Source: an uncultured Pelagibacteraceae bacterium
GTDB lineage: Bacteria > Pseudomonadota > Alphaproteobacteria > Pelagibacterales > Pelagibacteraceae
Length of the DNA stretch: 64,000 bases
Reading direction: 5' to 3'
NCBI GenBank assembly: GCA_902543575.1
Contig: CACBYV010000001.1
Location: 1-64,000, forward strand
Position numbers and translations under genes: made by a program. Positions 15,448 through 60,341 of the stretch are shown piece by piece. A model generated the notes under the pieces. That model did no database searches. It was not told the origin of the DNA and was given only the letters and a program-made list of their open reading frames with translations. Position 1 is the first letter of the stretch; every line of letters starts with the position of its first letter.

Positions 15448-15508
15448 TAGCTAAAATAATAGAACTCTAATGTAAAAATTAATAATTATTTGGATTTATT
15501 TTAATGAA

Positions 15509-15866
15509 ATGCCAGATAAACTATAAGCCGGGTTCTGTCTTCTAAACTTATCATTTATCTAGGCTTTAAATCACTTTAAAGCTCAAGCAACTAACCCTGA
15601 TGACTAGCCAAAGACTGCTTTTAGTTATTTCTAACAATGTCATCTCTACTCAGTCTTGCTCCCAGTGGGGTTTTCCATGCGCTAGTTGTTACCAACTTAG
15701 CCGGTGTGCTCTTACCACACCTTTTCACCCTTGCCTTGATAAGGCGGTTTATTTTCTGTGGCACTATCCCTAGGGTTTCCCCCGCCAGCTGTTAACTGGC
15801 ACTGTGTCTTTGTAGAGCCCGGACTTTCCTCTTTAAAATTAAAGCGATAAGTCATTTATCTGGCAT
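15509..15866 (-). ncRNA. rnpB: RNase P RNA, bacterial type A
   Basis: Catalytic RNA that trims tRNA 5' ends. Conserved core elements are readable on the minus strand: GAGGAAAGUCCGGGCU near the 5' end, ACAGUGCC, GGGAUAGUGCCACAGAAA, the GGUGAAAAGGUG...GGUAAGAGC block, and ACAGAACCCGGCUUA near the 3' end. The ends pair as helix P1 (AUGCCAGAUAAA with UUUAUCUGGCAU), which sets the boundaries at about 358 bases. It lies between mraZ and the amidase gene on the same strand and fills what would otherwise be the largest gap in the window. Confidence 0.97.
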
Positions 15867-19186: not shown

Positions 19187-19263
19187 TGGTGGGCCCGCCA
19201 GGACTCGAACCTGGGACCAATACATTATGAGTGTACTGCTCTAACCAACTGAGCTACAGGCCC
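19187..19263 (-). tRNA. tRNA with CAT anticodon (elongator Met or Ile2)
   Basis: A complete cloverleaf of 77 bases with an encoded CCA. The acceptor begins GGGCCTG and pairs with CGGGCCC; the D-loop (AGTTGGTTA) and T-loop (TTCGAGT) are canonical; anticodon loop CTCATAA gives anticodon CAT. It is not the initiator type, because the first base pair is G-C. Elongator Met and lysidine-modified Ile2 cannot be separated by eye. Confidence 0.93.
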
Positions 19264-19323: not shown

Positions 19324-19398
19324 TGGTGGGCCGTGTTGGTTACGCTCCAACTACCCCTGCAATGTCAATGCAGTACTCTACTATTGAGCTAACGGCCC
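19324..19398 (-). tRNA. tRNA-Val(GAC) with atypical D- and T-loops
   Basis: Acceptor GGGCCGT pairs perfectly with ACGGCCC, the anticodon stem CTGCA/TGCAG is perfect around loop TTGACAT (anticodon GAC), and CCA is encoded. The T-stem GTTGG/CCAAC is perfect but the loop is AGCGTAA instead of TTCRANN, and the D-loop is AATAGTA, with A where G18 should be. Its first base is the last base of the rpoD stop codon. Stems and CCA argue for a functional gene rather than a relic. Confidence 0.85.
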
Positions 19399-21224
19399 TA
19401 ACTTTCTAAGAAACTTTTTAGTTGTTTAGATCTACTTGGATGTTTTAATTTTCTTAGAGCTTTAGCTTCTATTTGTCTAATTCTTTCTCTAGTTACCGAA
19501 AACTGAAGTCCAACTTCTTCAAGTGTATGATCGGTATTCATTCCAACACCAAATCTCATCCTTAAAACCCTTTCTTCTCTTGGTGTTAGAGTTGATAATA
19601 TTTTTGTAGTAGCTTCACTTAAATTTGATTTAATTGCCTGTTCTAATGGTGCCAAAGCTTTTGTATCTTCAATAAAATCTCCTAAACTACTATCTTCTTC
19701 ATCTCCAACTGGTTTTTCAAGTGAAACAGGTTCTTTTGAAATTTTCAGTACTTTTCTGACTTTTTCTAAAGGCATGCGTAGTTTGTTTGCTAGCTCCTCT
19801 GGAGTCGCTTCCCTACCAAATTCACTAAGTATCAATCTTTGAGTTCTAACAATTTTATTTATAGTTTCAATCATGTGAACTGGGATTCTAATTGTTCTAG
19901 CTTGATCAGCTATAGATCTTGTTATTGCTTGCCTTATCCACCATGTTGCATATGTTGAAAATTTATATCCTCTTCTGTATTCAAACTTATCTACCGCTTT
20001 CATTAAACCAATATTACCCTCTTGGATTAAATCTAAAAACTGTAAACCTCTATTAGTATATTTTTTTGCAATTGAAATTACTAATCTCAAATTTGCTTCA
20101 ACCATTTCTTTTTTTGCAATTCTTGACTCCTTTTCACCTTTTTGAATACGGCTTACTAGTTTTTTATATTCTGTTACAGATATTCCAAGCTTGTTGCTTA
20201 TCTCAACTAATCTATCTCTAATATTTTTAAATTCACTTTTATTTTTTTGGAAAAATTTTTTCCAAACTTCATTGGTATCTAAGAATTCCTTTAAATTAGG
20301 ATTAATTTCATTACCAATGTAGAACTTTATAAATTCATCTCTGGATATTTTTGACTCCATAGCGAGCCTTAATAGATTTCCCTCAAGCGAGATAATTTTT
20401 TTATTTTCAGAATAATGTTTCTGAACTAATTCCTCTAAAACTGATGGCGATAATTGAAGTGATTTTATATGTTCAATAATATCATCGACGATTTTTTTAT
20501 AGTTCTTTTCTTTTGAGTTTGAAAACTTTTGTGACTTTAGCACACATTCAAGCTTTTCTTTTTGGTATTTGGTAAGTTTATTGTATTCTTTAGTTAAATT
20601 ATGAACAGTTTGTAAAACTTTAGGCTTGATTTCTGTTTCCATTGCAGCCAAAGTAGGATTAAATTCATCATCATCAGTATTATTTGTCTCCTCAGATGAT
20701 TGTTCCTCGTCTTGTTTTTTTTGTTTTGTCCCATTATTTCCATCATCATCTTCCATATAATTTGTATCAATATCAATAATTTCTCTAACTAGAATTTCAT
20801 CATTCTGTAGCTTAACGTCCCAATCAGAAAATTGTTGCGCAGTAATAGGACTTTGAGATAAAGCATTGAGCATTACATCTTTTCCTGCCTCAATTCTTTT
20901 TGCAATTGCAATTTCTCCTTCTCTAGATAATAGCTCTACACCACCCATTTCTCTTAAATACATTCTTATAGGGTCGTCACTTTTCTCTAAAGTTTTTCCT
21001 TCTTCTTTAGATGATGCATCTTTTTTTCTTAAAACTTTATAATCAGATTTTTTTTCAACTAAGATGATATTTTCATCAAGTATATGAATAAATGCTTGTG
21101 CTAAATTTTCGCTTGATAAATTTCTTTTTCCCAGCGATTTGTTCAATTCCTCATGAGTGATGAAACCACGATGAATTCCTCGACCCATTAATCTTGCAAA
21201 TGATTTTGTTATTATACGTTCCAC
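19398..21224 (-). CDS. rpoD: RNA polymerase primary sigma factor RpoD (sigma-70)
   Basis: Housekeeping sigma factor. 608 residues starting from GTG. N-terminal region 1.1 (1-60), region 1.2 ([21 protein letters not shown]), an acidic non-conserved insert around 165-190, regions 2.1-2.4 ([19 protein letters not shown] through [18 protein letters not shown]), region 3, and region 4 with the helix-turn-helix [21 protein letters not shown]. Third gene of yqeY-dnaG-rpoD, 67 bases after dnaG. Its TAG stop shares the G with tRNA-Val base 1. Confidence 0.97.
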
Positions 21225-59189: not shown

Positions 59190-59225
59190 TAATAACAATT
59201 ATCAATCAATAAATTCAATCACAGG

Positions 59226-59254
59226 TTGACGTAGACTCCTGACTGGAGTCTAAT
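59226..59254 (+). promoter_or_regulatory. Predicted ccrM promoter carrying two GANTC sites in an inverted repeat
   Basis: -35 TTGACG (59226-59231), 17-base spacer, -10 TCTAAT (59249-59254). An 8-bp perfect inverted repeat (TAGACTCC at 59232-59239, GGAGTCTA at 59245-59252) fills the spacer and enters the -10; it contains GACTC (59234-59238) and GAGTC (59246-59250), both GANTC sites of the CcrM class. Predicted transcription start is about 7 bases before the ATG, so the mRNA would be nearly leaderless. Confidence 0.65.
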
Positions 59255-59267
59255 TCAAAAATATAAA

Positions 59268-60341
59268 ATGATAATTTCAGACATAAAAAATAAAATTATT
59301 AATGGAGATAGTATCAAGGAATTAAAAAAAATTCCGGCTGAAAGTTTTGATCTGATATTTGCAGATCCACCTTACAACCTTCAACTGAAAAAGGAGTTAA
59401 GTCGACCTGATAGTTCTAAAGTCGATGCTGTAGACGATGCATGGGATAAATTTGATAGTTTTAAAAGTTACGATGAGTTTTCAGTTCAATGGCTTAAAGA
59501 ATGTAAAAGAATTTTAAAAAAAAATGGATCTATATGGGTCATAGGAAGTTATCATAATATTTTTAGAGTAGGTTCAAAAATGCAAGATTTAGGTTTTTGG
59601 ATACTAAATGATGTGATTTGGAACAAAAAAAACCCTATGCCAAATTTTAGAGGAACACGTTTTACGAATGCGCACGAAACACTTATATGGGCATCAAAAA
59701 GTGAAGGCTCAAAATATACTTTTAATTATCAATCACTTAAATGTTTAAACGATGATCTGCAGATGAGATCTACATGGAATTTACCTATATGTAATGGAAA
59801 AGAAAGACTTAAAAATAATGGTAATAAAGTTCACTCAACGCAAAAGCCAGAGTCTCTATTGCACAGAATTATATTAGCATCCTCTAATAAGGGCGATTTA
59901 ATATTGGACCCGTTTCTTGGTACGGGAACAACTGCTGTAGTTTCCAAAAAGTTAGGTAGAAATTATTTTGGGGTAGAAAAAGAAAAAAACTATTTTGAAG
60001 CTGCAAGTAAAAGAATTAAAAATACAAAAATTATTGAAGATGAATATTTAGATACTATAAAAAATAATAGATCCAAACCAAGAGTGCCATTTGGATCTTT
60101 GGTTGAATTAGGAATTATTAAACCTGGTACTGAAATTTTTGATCAAAAAAAACAAATCAATGCGAAAATTATGATTGATGGTAGTATAAAATATCGGAAA
60201 TCAGAAGGATCAATTCATAAAGTTGCTGCACAAATATTAGGTGCTGAGAGCTGTAACGGTTGGACTTTTTGGTATTATAAATCAGGTAATTCACTCAAAC
60301 CAATTGATGATTTGAGGCAAAGACTAAGGCCAACTACTTAA
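59268..60341 (+). CDS. ccrM: Cell-cycle adenine DNA methyltransferase CcrM (GANTC)
   Basis: Beta-class N6-adenine methyltransferase: DPPY (33-36) precedes the SAM motif FLGTGT (216-221). 357 residues, including the C-terminal RAMA-like domain (about 270-357, VPFGSLVELGIIKPGTEIF, IHKVAAQILGAESCNGWTFW) that distinguishes CcrM from restriction-linked methylases. No restriction endonuclease gene is nearby. In Caulobacter it methylates GANTC late in the cell cycle and controls transcription. The stop shares TTAA with the opposing monooxygenase gene. Confidence 0.95.
   Translation: MIISDIKNKIINGDSIKELKKIPAESFDLIFADPPYNLQLKKELSRPDSSKVDAVDDAWDKFDSFKSYDEFSVQWLKECKRILKKNGSIWVIGSYHNIFRVGSKMQDLGFWILNDVIWNKKNPMPNFRGTRFTNAHETLIWASKSEGSKYTFNYQSLKCLNDDLQMRSTWNLPICNGKERLKNNGNKVHSTQKPESLLHRIILASSNKGDLILDPFLGTGTTAVVSKKLGRNYFGVEKEKNYFEAASKRIKNTKIIEDEYLDTIKNNRSKPRVPFGSLVELGIIKPGTEIFDQKKQINAKIMIDGSIKYRKSEGSIHKVAAQILGAESCNGWTFWYYKSGNSLKPIDDLRQRLRPTT

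Follow-up and report, generated by a model that had tools for sequence, protein, structure and literature searches.

Altered 54-58 pairs were reportedly obtained by Zagryadskaya, Doyon and Steinberg in 2003 in suppressor tRNAs selected in E. coli from an artificial library, and purine-purine pairs at this place, e.g. G54-G58, are said to be able to function. To our knowledge, that library did not contain the combination of A18/G55 with A54/U58 (hereafter full exchange) that is carried by the SAR11 tRNA-Val(GAC) described here; its G54-G58 pair resembles viral A18/G55 tRNAs, in which G54/G58 was seen in 29 of 110 distinct sequences among the matches listed. In the eukaryotic initiator tRNA, the 18-55 contact is not known to be changed. 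Its 54-58 pair is A54-A58, as given in PMC7912444, and so it presents, like the SAR11 tRNA, a natural departure at position 54, but its position 58 stays A.

A company of changes is known from eukaryotic cytosolic tRNA-Ala(AGC), in which R15/A48, A54/A58 and R60 occur together; Westhof et al. 2020 (PMC7566577) explain this by the location of 48 and 54 on one strand, and their abstract states that such pairs have not been observed in bacteria or archaea. The SAR11 tRNA-Val shares with this tRNA, as portrayed in that text, purines at 48, 54 and 60 together and a purine-purine 15/48 pair, but differs from it in U58, A18/G55, the anticodon GAC and its bacterial host. It thus presents R15/A48 with purines at 54 and 60 in a bacterium (A15/A48, A54 and A60), but, having U58, not A54/A58. 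Further departures are tRNA-Pyl and the type II mitochondrial tRNAs, which according to PMC7609411 are without the usual G18 and TPsiC signature that type I mitochondrial tRNAs keep. These lose or rebuild the D/T contact, tRNA-Pyl having arms and loops of altered size, whereas the SAR11 tRNA-Val has a normal cloverleaf and G19-C56. Among the titles and abstract openings searched, which cover the RNA literature in part, we found none that deals with A18/G55 or with the elbows of SAR11 tRNAs.

A tRNA-Val(GAC) gene with an exchanged elbow

The window, i.e. the whole stretch of DNA that was analysed (64,000 nucleotides), belongs to a genome of 1.19 Mb in 33 contigs that is 93.6% complete. An earlier note on this DNA had read in it a tRNA-Val(GAC) with a changed D-loop/T-loop elbow, and the same gene and bases were obtained in three ways: ARAGORN called tRNA-Val(gac) over exactly this span and strand, the Rfam tRNA model RF00005 scored 53.6 bits (gathering score 29), which identifies it as a tRNA, and direct reading of the sequence gave the T-loop AGCGTAA with A54-T58 and G55, and A18 beside a retained G19 and C56, just as described (Table 1). 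The stems and CCA had been called perfect; all four stems do pair and the CCA is encoded, but G10-U25 is only a wobble. Three contacts of the canonical elbow are absent, G18-U55 being replaced by A18/G55, U54-A58 by A54/U58 and the Levitt pair R15-Y48 by A15/A48, the last an addition to the changes first noted; G19-C56, U8-A14 and G53-C61 are retained. The proposed loss of the sites for m5U54 and pseudouridine-55 is certain from the sequence, these positions being A54 and G55. The identity elements of valine tRNAs are the anticodon NAC and A73, and both are present (GAC and A73) and invariant in the 13 rewired sequences aligned below.

Table 1. Features of the tRNA-Val(GAC) gene and its neighbours, in window positions
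Feature	Position	Strand	Basis or remark
rpoD (sigma-70), directly upstream of tRNA-Val	19398..21224	-	neighbour, no part in mechanism
tRNA-Val(GAC) gene, encoded CCA, rewired elbow	19324..19398	-	sequence, ARAGORN, Rfam RF00005
D-loop AAUAGUA (14-21): A14 A15 U16 A18 G19 U20 A21; A18 = 19382, G19 kept, A15 = 19384	19379..19385	-	sequence
Anticodon GAC within anticodon loop UUGACAU	19364..19366	-	ARAGORN; invariant in 13 rewired sequences
Variable loop GGGUA: G44 G45 G46 U47 A48; A48 = 19352, Levitt partner of A15	19352..19356	-	sequence
T-loop AGCGUAA: A54 (19346), G55 (19345), C56, G57, U58 (19342), A59, A60 (19340)	19340..19346	-	sequence, Rfam RF00005
tRNA-Met(CAU), canonical elbow, downstream, frequent neighbour of tRNA-Val	19187..19263	-	ARAGORN

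The genome yielded 31 tRNA matches, among them this one Val(GAC) and one Val(UAC). The earlier note had wished to see whether another GAC or a UAC tRNA-Val exists: no second GAC was found among the 31 matches of this 93.6% complete genome, and the single UAC tRNA is canonical. The remaining 30 tRNAs all carry GG in the D-loop, UUC at 54-56 and A58.

The last base of the rpoD stop codon TAG (19400-19398) is G1 of the tRNA; RNase P cleavage would remove the stop codon. We considered this overlap as a regulatory device and rejected it, as the spacing is not conserved (+1 to -32 in genomes with an adjacent rpoD, -252 in G197) and the tRNA-Val of some relatives is located away from rpoD. Two further RNA matches lie in the window, a class A RNase P RNA at 15508-15863 (minus strand, 289.8 bits) and a bablM sRNA of Rfam at 59203-59271 (plus strand, 46.4 bits, gathering score 38).

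Conservation and history among relatives

DNA of the tRNA-Val was found in 20 of 41 genomes (own included), every one of them within the genus, which is represented by 25 genomes; 15 of these 25 (own included) carry the identical 75 bases. A model of the rewired form, built from six sequences and applied with a threshold of 94 bits, reached it in 108 of 117 genus genomes, a count by score with part of the sequences read and with two genomes, G009 and G022, that had supplied sequences to the model. The threshold was also reached in 3 of 27 genomes from other genera of the family and in none of 53 from the sister family, and across the class 3 of 385 genomes pass an E-value of 1e-20, all from the genus.

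Other forms exist within the genus. Four congeners (G067, G069, G179 and G197) have a Val(GAC) with a canonical elbow, which in all four follows rpoD and shares a 3-kb locus with tRNA-Met, as in our genome, and a fifth (G211) carries an intermediate, A18/G55 with U54/A58, in a gene that sits elsewhere than the rpoD locus. In the sister family the tRNAs read (L091-L093) have the D-loop AGUGGUA and the T-loop UUCGAUC/U, and this canonical elbow is presumed to be the ancestral state.

Among the nine genus genomes below 94 bits, an intact Val(GAC) was not found in G081, G132, G149 and G154. Since rpoD was undetected in G081, G132 and G154 too, assembly gaps likely explain the missing gene in some of these three. 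Gene loss in G081 and G055, where RF00005 gave 26 and 25 tRNAs and none of those read (all but several long, class II-sized matches) is Val(GAC), was considered and rejected; other tRNAs are missing there, in G081 rpoD as well, and so assembly gaps may explain the absence. In G132 only the 3' half of a rewired tRNA-Val is present (L313, contig 7 of 4224 bases, near position 2871), adjoining genes that by eye are asparagine-synthetase-like and sugar amidotransferase-like, and in G149 a different gene or genes follow rpoD. The tRNA-Val gene may be an insertion site for islands and, in some species, may be dispensable.

To the alignment we admitted 13 distinct rewired sequences, 12 chromosomal and one viral, leaving out the 76-base sequence of G063; ten of them had been found by overall similarity and three (L172, L193 and L341) by patterns demanding part of the elbow, and related sequences inflate such counts of rewired forms. 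In this alignment 272 of 273 stem cells are paired and 13 of 21 stem pairs have changed on both sides, a number as high as which was reached in 0 of 500 shuffles. Invariant throughout are A14, A15, A18, G19, A21, A48, A54, G55, C56, U58 and A60, and likewise the anticodon loop, the CCA, U8-A14, G19-C56 and G53-C61. With elbow bases fixed while the stems change with compensation, and with canonical, intermediate and rewired forms side by side in one genus, the earlier note's reading of compensating evolution rather than decay is upheld, and the comparison across relatives that it had proposed returned the same changes and no random drift.

Outside the D-loop, our tRNA and the canonical one of G197 agree at 60 of 68 positions, the acceptor, D and anticodon stems being equal; the eight differences fall at position 48, at both bases of pair 52-62 and at five bases of the T-loop. 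As the differences are so confined, the elbow changed as a unit in what is seemingly one and the same gene. Its history is less simple. On a tree of rpoD from 30 genomes, drawn without the sister family and genus g6 and with G061 and G184 labelled by model score, the elbow forms are scattered, with nine changes over five labels. A single origin of the rewired form is thus not borne out, recombination and repeated change being indistinguishable there. The intermediate in G211 suggests that 18/55 changed before 54/58, recombination being the other possibility.

Positions 18 and 55 and their partners in cellular and viral tRNAs

Within the order, 118 distinct tRNAs, a sample biased by the choice of loci, comprise 92 with G18/U55, 24 with A18/G55 and two that are unscorable; neither A18/U55 nor G18/G55 occurs among the 116 scorable ones. 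A tRNA-Phe pattern that accepted A or G at 18 and U or G at 55 matched in 125 of 147 genomes of the order, the 22 others being uninformative; of the 125, 71 have G18/U55, 54 have A18/G55 and none is mixed. The 18-55 covariation that the earlier note had put up for testing is thus borne out in both sets. A18/G55 was seen in Val, Phe and Tyr tRNAs of the order, the Tyr one from another genus, and the tRNA-Phe of the genus member G149 (L104) equals that in named Pelagibacteraceae records. Another exchanged elbow pair seems to exist in the order, in that two Pelagibacteraceae (AG-903-K07 and AG-430-F16; L171 and L229) have a tRNA-Thr(GGU) with the D-loop UAGUGUUA and the T-loop UUAGAUU, which would place U19-A56 where G19-C56 is usual.

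At least 120 stretches of genome contigs match a pattern demanding A18, G55 and U59. Among the matches listed, most are tRNA-Phe of Pelagibacteraceae and tRNA-Gly(UCC) of Streptomyces and its relatives; isolated cases come from Chloroflexi, Verrucomicrobia, Woesearchaeota and, three of them, Micrarchaeota, odd tRNAs come from Nostoc/Calothrix, and a Gribaldobacterium tRNA-Phe has the full exchange (T-loop AGCGUUA). The Streptomyces tRNA-Gly(UCC) (L151, L155, L223 and others) is often multi-copy, and its T-stem as cut pairs, by eye, only with one bulged base.

On viral contigs, the full-exchange pattern with any anticodon matched 31 stretches, of which 30 fold as tRNAs (21 distinct) and one, L357, is no tRNA. 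They carry eight anticodons (UAC, GAC, GAU, GCC, UUU, CAU, GUU and UGG), three CAU cases having only three of five T-stem pairs, and one of them is the tRNA-Met of Acinetobacter phage Ac42. Viral Val(GAC) tRNAs with the same elbow are L272/L341, L367 and the mutually identical L346, L352 and L369; of six viral matches to an earlier Val(GAC) pattern, only L272 looks like a tRNA. L272 belongs to a 210-kb viral record (G597, IMGVR_UViG_3300027807_000001) with 39 tRNA matches, from which 36 distinct tRNAs were read. In this record A18/G55 occurs among the tRNAs for Val, His, Arg and Trp, a Met tRNA of odd build shows what seems to be G18/G55, and one sequence was unparsed.

We scanned viral contigs for combinations of 18 and 55 with one fixed D-stem. 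A18/G55 gave at least 143 matches with 139 good cloverleaves, 110 of them distinct, from 148 loci (full-exchange loci included). Complete scans returned five stretches with G18/G55, four of them good, and 19 with A18, a base other than G at 55 and no G at 20, of which 16 are good, as against at least 100 good A18/G55 cloverleaves under the same restriction at 20. Apparent A18/U55 proved, in 114 of 116 good cases among the matches listed, to be A17 before a normal GG. Since G18/G55 and A18/non-G55 are few beside so many A18/G55, the coupling in viral tRNAs is strong, not absolute.

The 54/58 pair is freer. Among the matches listed, 54/58 in the 110 distinct viral tRNAs with A18/G55 is U/A in 59, G/G in 29, A/U in nine, A/A in seven, C/A in four and C/C in two; without the loci chosen for A54/U58, 99 remain, with U/A in 59, G/G in 27, A/A in six, C/A in four, C/C in two and A/U in one. 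With A54/U58 in a single one of these 99, the full exchange is seldom found in viral tRNAs, common as A18/G55 is among them. In turn, 119 distinct viral tRNAs with G18/U55 and a base other than U at 54, again among the matches listed, have A/U in 69, A/A in 34, G/G in seven and others in nine, and so the idea that the 54/58 exchange requires A18/G55, which fits the sampled tRNAs of the order (13 of 13), was rejected as false in viral tRNAs.

Bases 60 and 48 follow position 54. In the set of 99, base 60 is a pyrimidine in 56 of 59 tRNAs with U54 and a purine in 32 of 34 with A54 or G54, and base 48 is a pyrimidine in 57 of 59 and a purine in 18 of 34, respectively. Among the matches listed with G18/U55, base 60 is a purine in 70 of 104 tRNAs with A54, and base 48 is a purine in 37 of 104 with A54 compared to 28 of 290 with U54. 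On these counts, purine 54 favours purine 60 and, more weakly, purine 48.

Function and origin of the exchanged elbow

The rewired tRNA-Val is real, conserved and covarying, and it is not a new kind of molecule. Its sequence and conservation make it very probable that this is a working, selected and orthodox valine elongator tRNA with an alternative, self-consistent and covarying elbow; function as a valine tRNA is the best-supported reading, with GUU and GUC as the codons that it would be a candidate to read. Its elbow contacts would be A18 with G55, A54 with U58 and purines at 48 and 60, next to the unchanged G19-C56, U8-A14 and G53-C61. Like G18, A18 may lie stacked between 57 and 58, with one hydrogen bond available to G55; A54/U58 may form a flipped pair that closes the T-loop, and the purines at 48, 54 and 60 may adjust the strand. 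A18/G55 and A54/U58 would then stand in for G18-Psi55 and T54-A58 with a geometry that RNase P, ValRS, EF-Tu and the ribosome accept, and the tRNA would work without m5U54 and Psi55.

As a cause, and compatible with this reading of a working valine tRNA, constraint may have been relaxed, the genus having lost its pseudouridine-55 synthase so that U55 became dispensable and A18/G55 reachable. The TruB model (TIGR00431) finds nothing at E<=0.001 in our genome, matches being obtained in 14 of 14 control genomes (10 over the cut-off), and the occurrence of A18/G55 in Val, Phe and Tyr tRNAs of the order fits as well; a genus without Psi55, if it is so, would ease the exchange. The absence, however, is that from one genome, 93.6% complete. 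Of the 1343 kb of the complete relative G012, 600 kb were read; TruB was not found in this part, but neither were its E. coli operon neighbours (pnp, rpsO, rbfA, nusA and rimP absent, the sole infB match weak and probably EF-Tu). Moreover, the 30 other tRNAs of our genome keep U55, and A18/G55 is found also in viral contigs and unrelated bacteria, and so we regard this cause as rather unlikely.

Replacement of the gene by a virus-borne tRNA with this elbow is less likely again. Viral contigs do carry Val(GAC) tRNAs of this kind, and the 3' half in G132 lies beside sugar-related genes as the end of an island would look. Yet our tRNA matches the canonical G197 tRNA throughout the acceptor, D and anticodon stems, the differences being those of the elbow and pair 52-62, and the intermediate form points to a stepwise change within the order. 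In a phage collection, the viral Val(UAC) tRNA L363 has no match and the viral Val(GAC) tRNA L346 has 14 partial matches, 13 of them in Streptomyces phages; the Val(GAC) tRNAs of two of these phages, which were read, have a canonical elbow and so speak against replacement.

That the gene is a decaying tRNA or pseudogene, drifted since all valine codons can be read by tRNA-Val(UAC), is highly improbable: one U34 tRNA may suffice for a four-codon box, since only one Ala (UGC) and one Pro (UGG) tRNA were found in the genome, and G132 has the 3' half only and G149 other genes after rpoD, but the odd elbow bases are fixed while the stems compensate and the gene is identical in 15 of 25 genus genomes. 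Use outside the ribosome as an amino acid donor, as staphylococcal tRNA-Gly serves peptidoglycan, might be thought of for a tRNA with an unusual elbow in a genome with a second valine tRNA; it has equally little to recommend it, as G19-C56, the anticodon loop and the CCA are invariant, GUU and GUC make up 508 of 831 valine codons in the window (43 ATG-started open reading frames of at least 200 codons, any spurious ones included), and viral tRNAs show the same elbow with eight anticodons.

Going beyond a working valine tRNA in SAR11, we tentatively raise the possibility, ourselves doubting it, of a second natural elbow code, with A18/G55 for G18/U55, a freer 54/58 (U/A, G/G, A/A or A/U), mostly purine 60 with purine 54, and need of neither Psi55 nor m5U54. 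Viruses would use it across many anticodons, perhaps evading the T-arm enzymes of the host, and its most complete form would be fixed in an ordinary chromosomal tRNA of SAR11; it is weakened by the scarcity of A54/U58 (1 of 99) in distinct viral A18/G55 tRNAs.

The 18-55 and 54-58 contacts have been treated as near-universal and tied to Psi55 and m5U54, and both are exchanged, recurrently, in a conserved bacterial tRNA. Annotation that takes a UUCRA T-loop for granted would go wrong on such tRNAs. SAR11 strains and the tRNA-Met of Acinetobacter phage Ac42 offer natural test objects for asking which elbow contacts translation needs and what purpose the T-loop modifications have. The conservation of the exchanged elbow in relatives and its recurrence in viral tRNAs suggest that the corner of a tRNA can be built in a second way that works.
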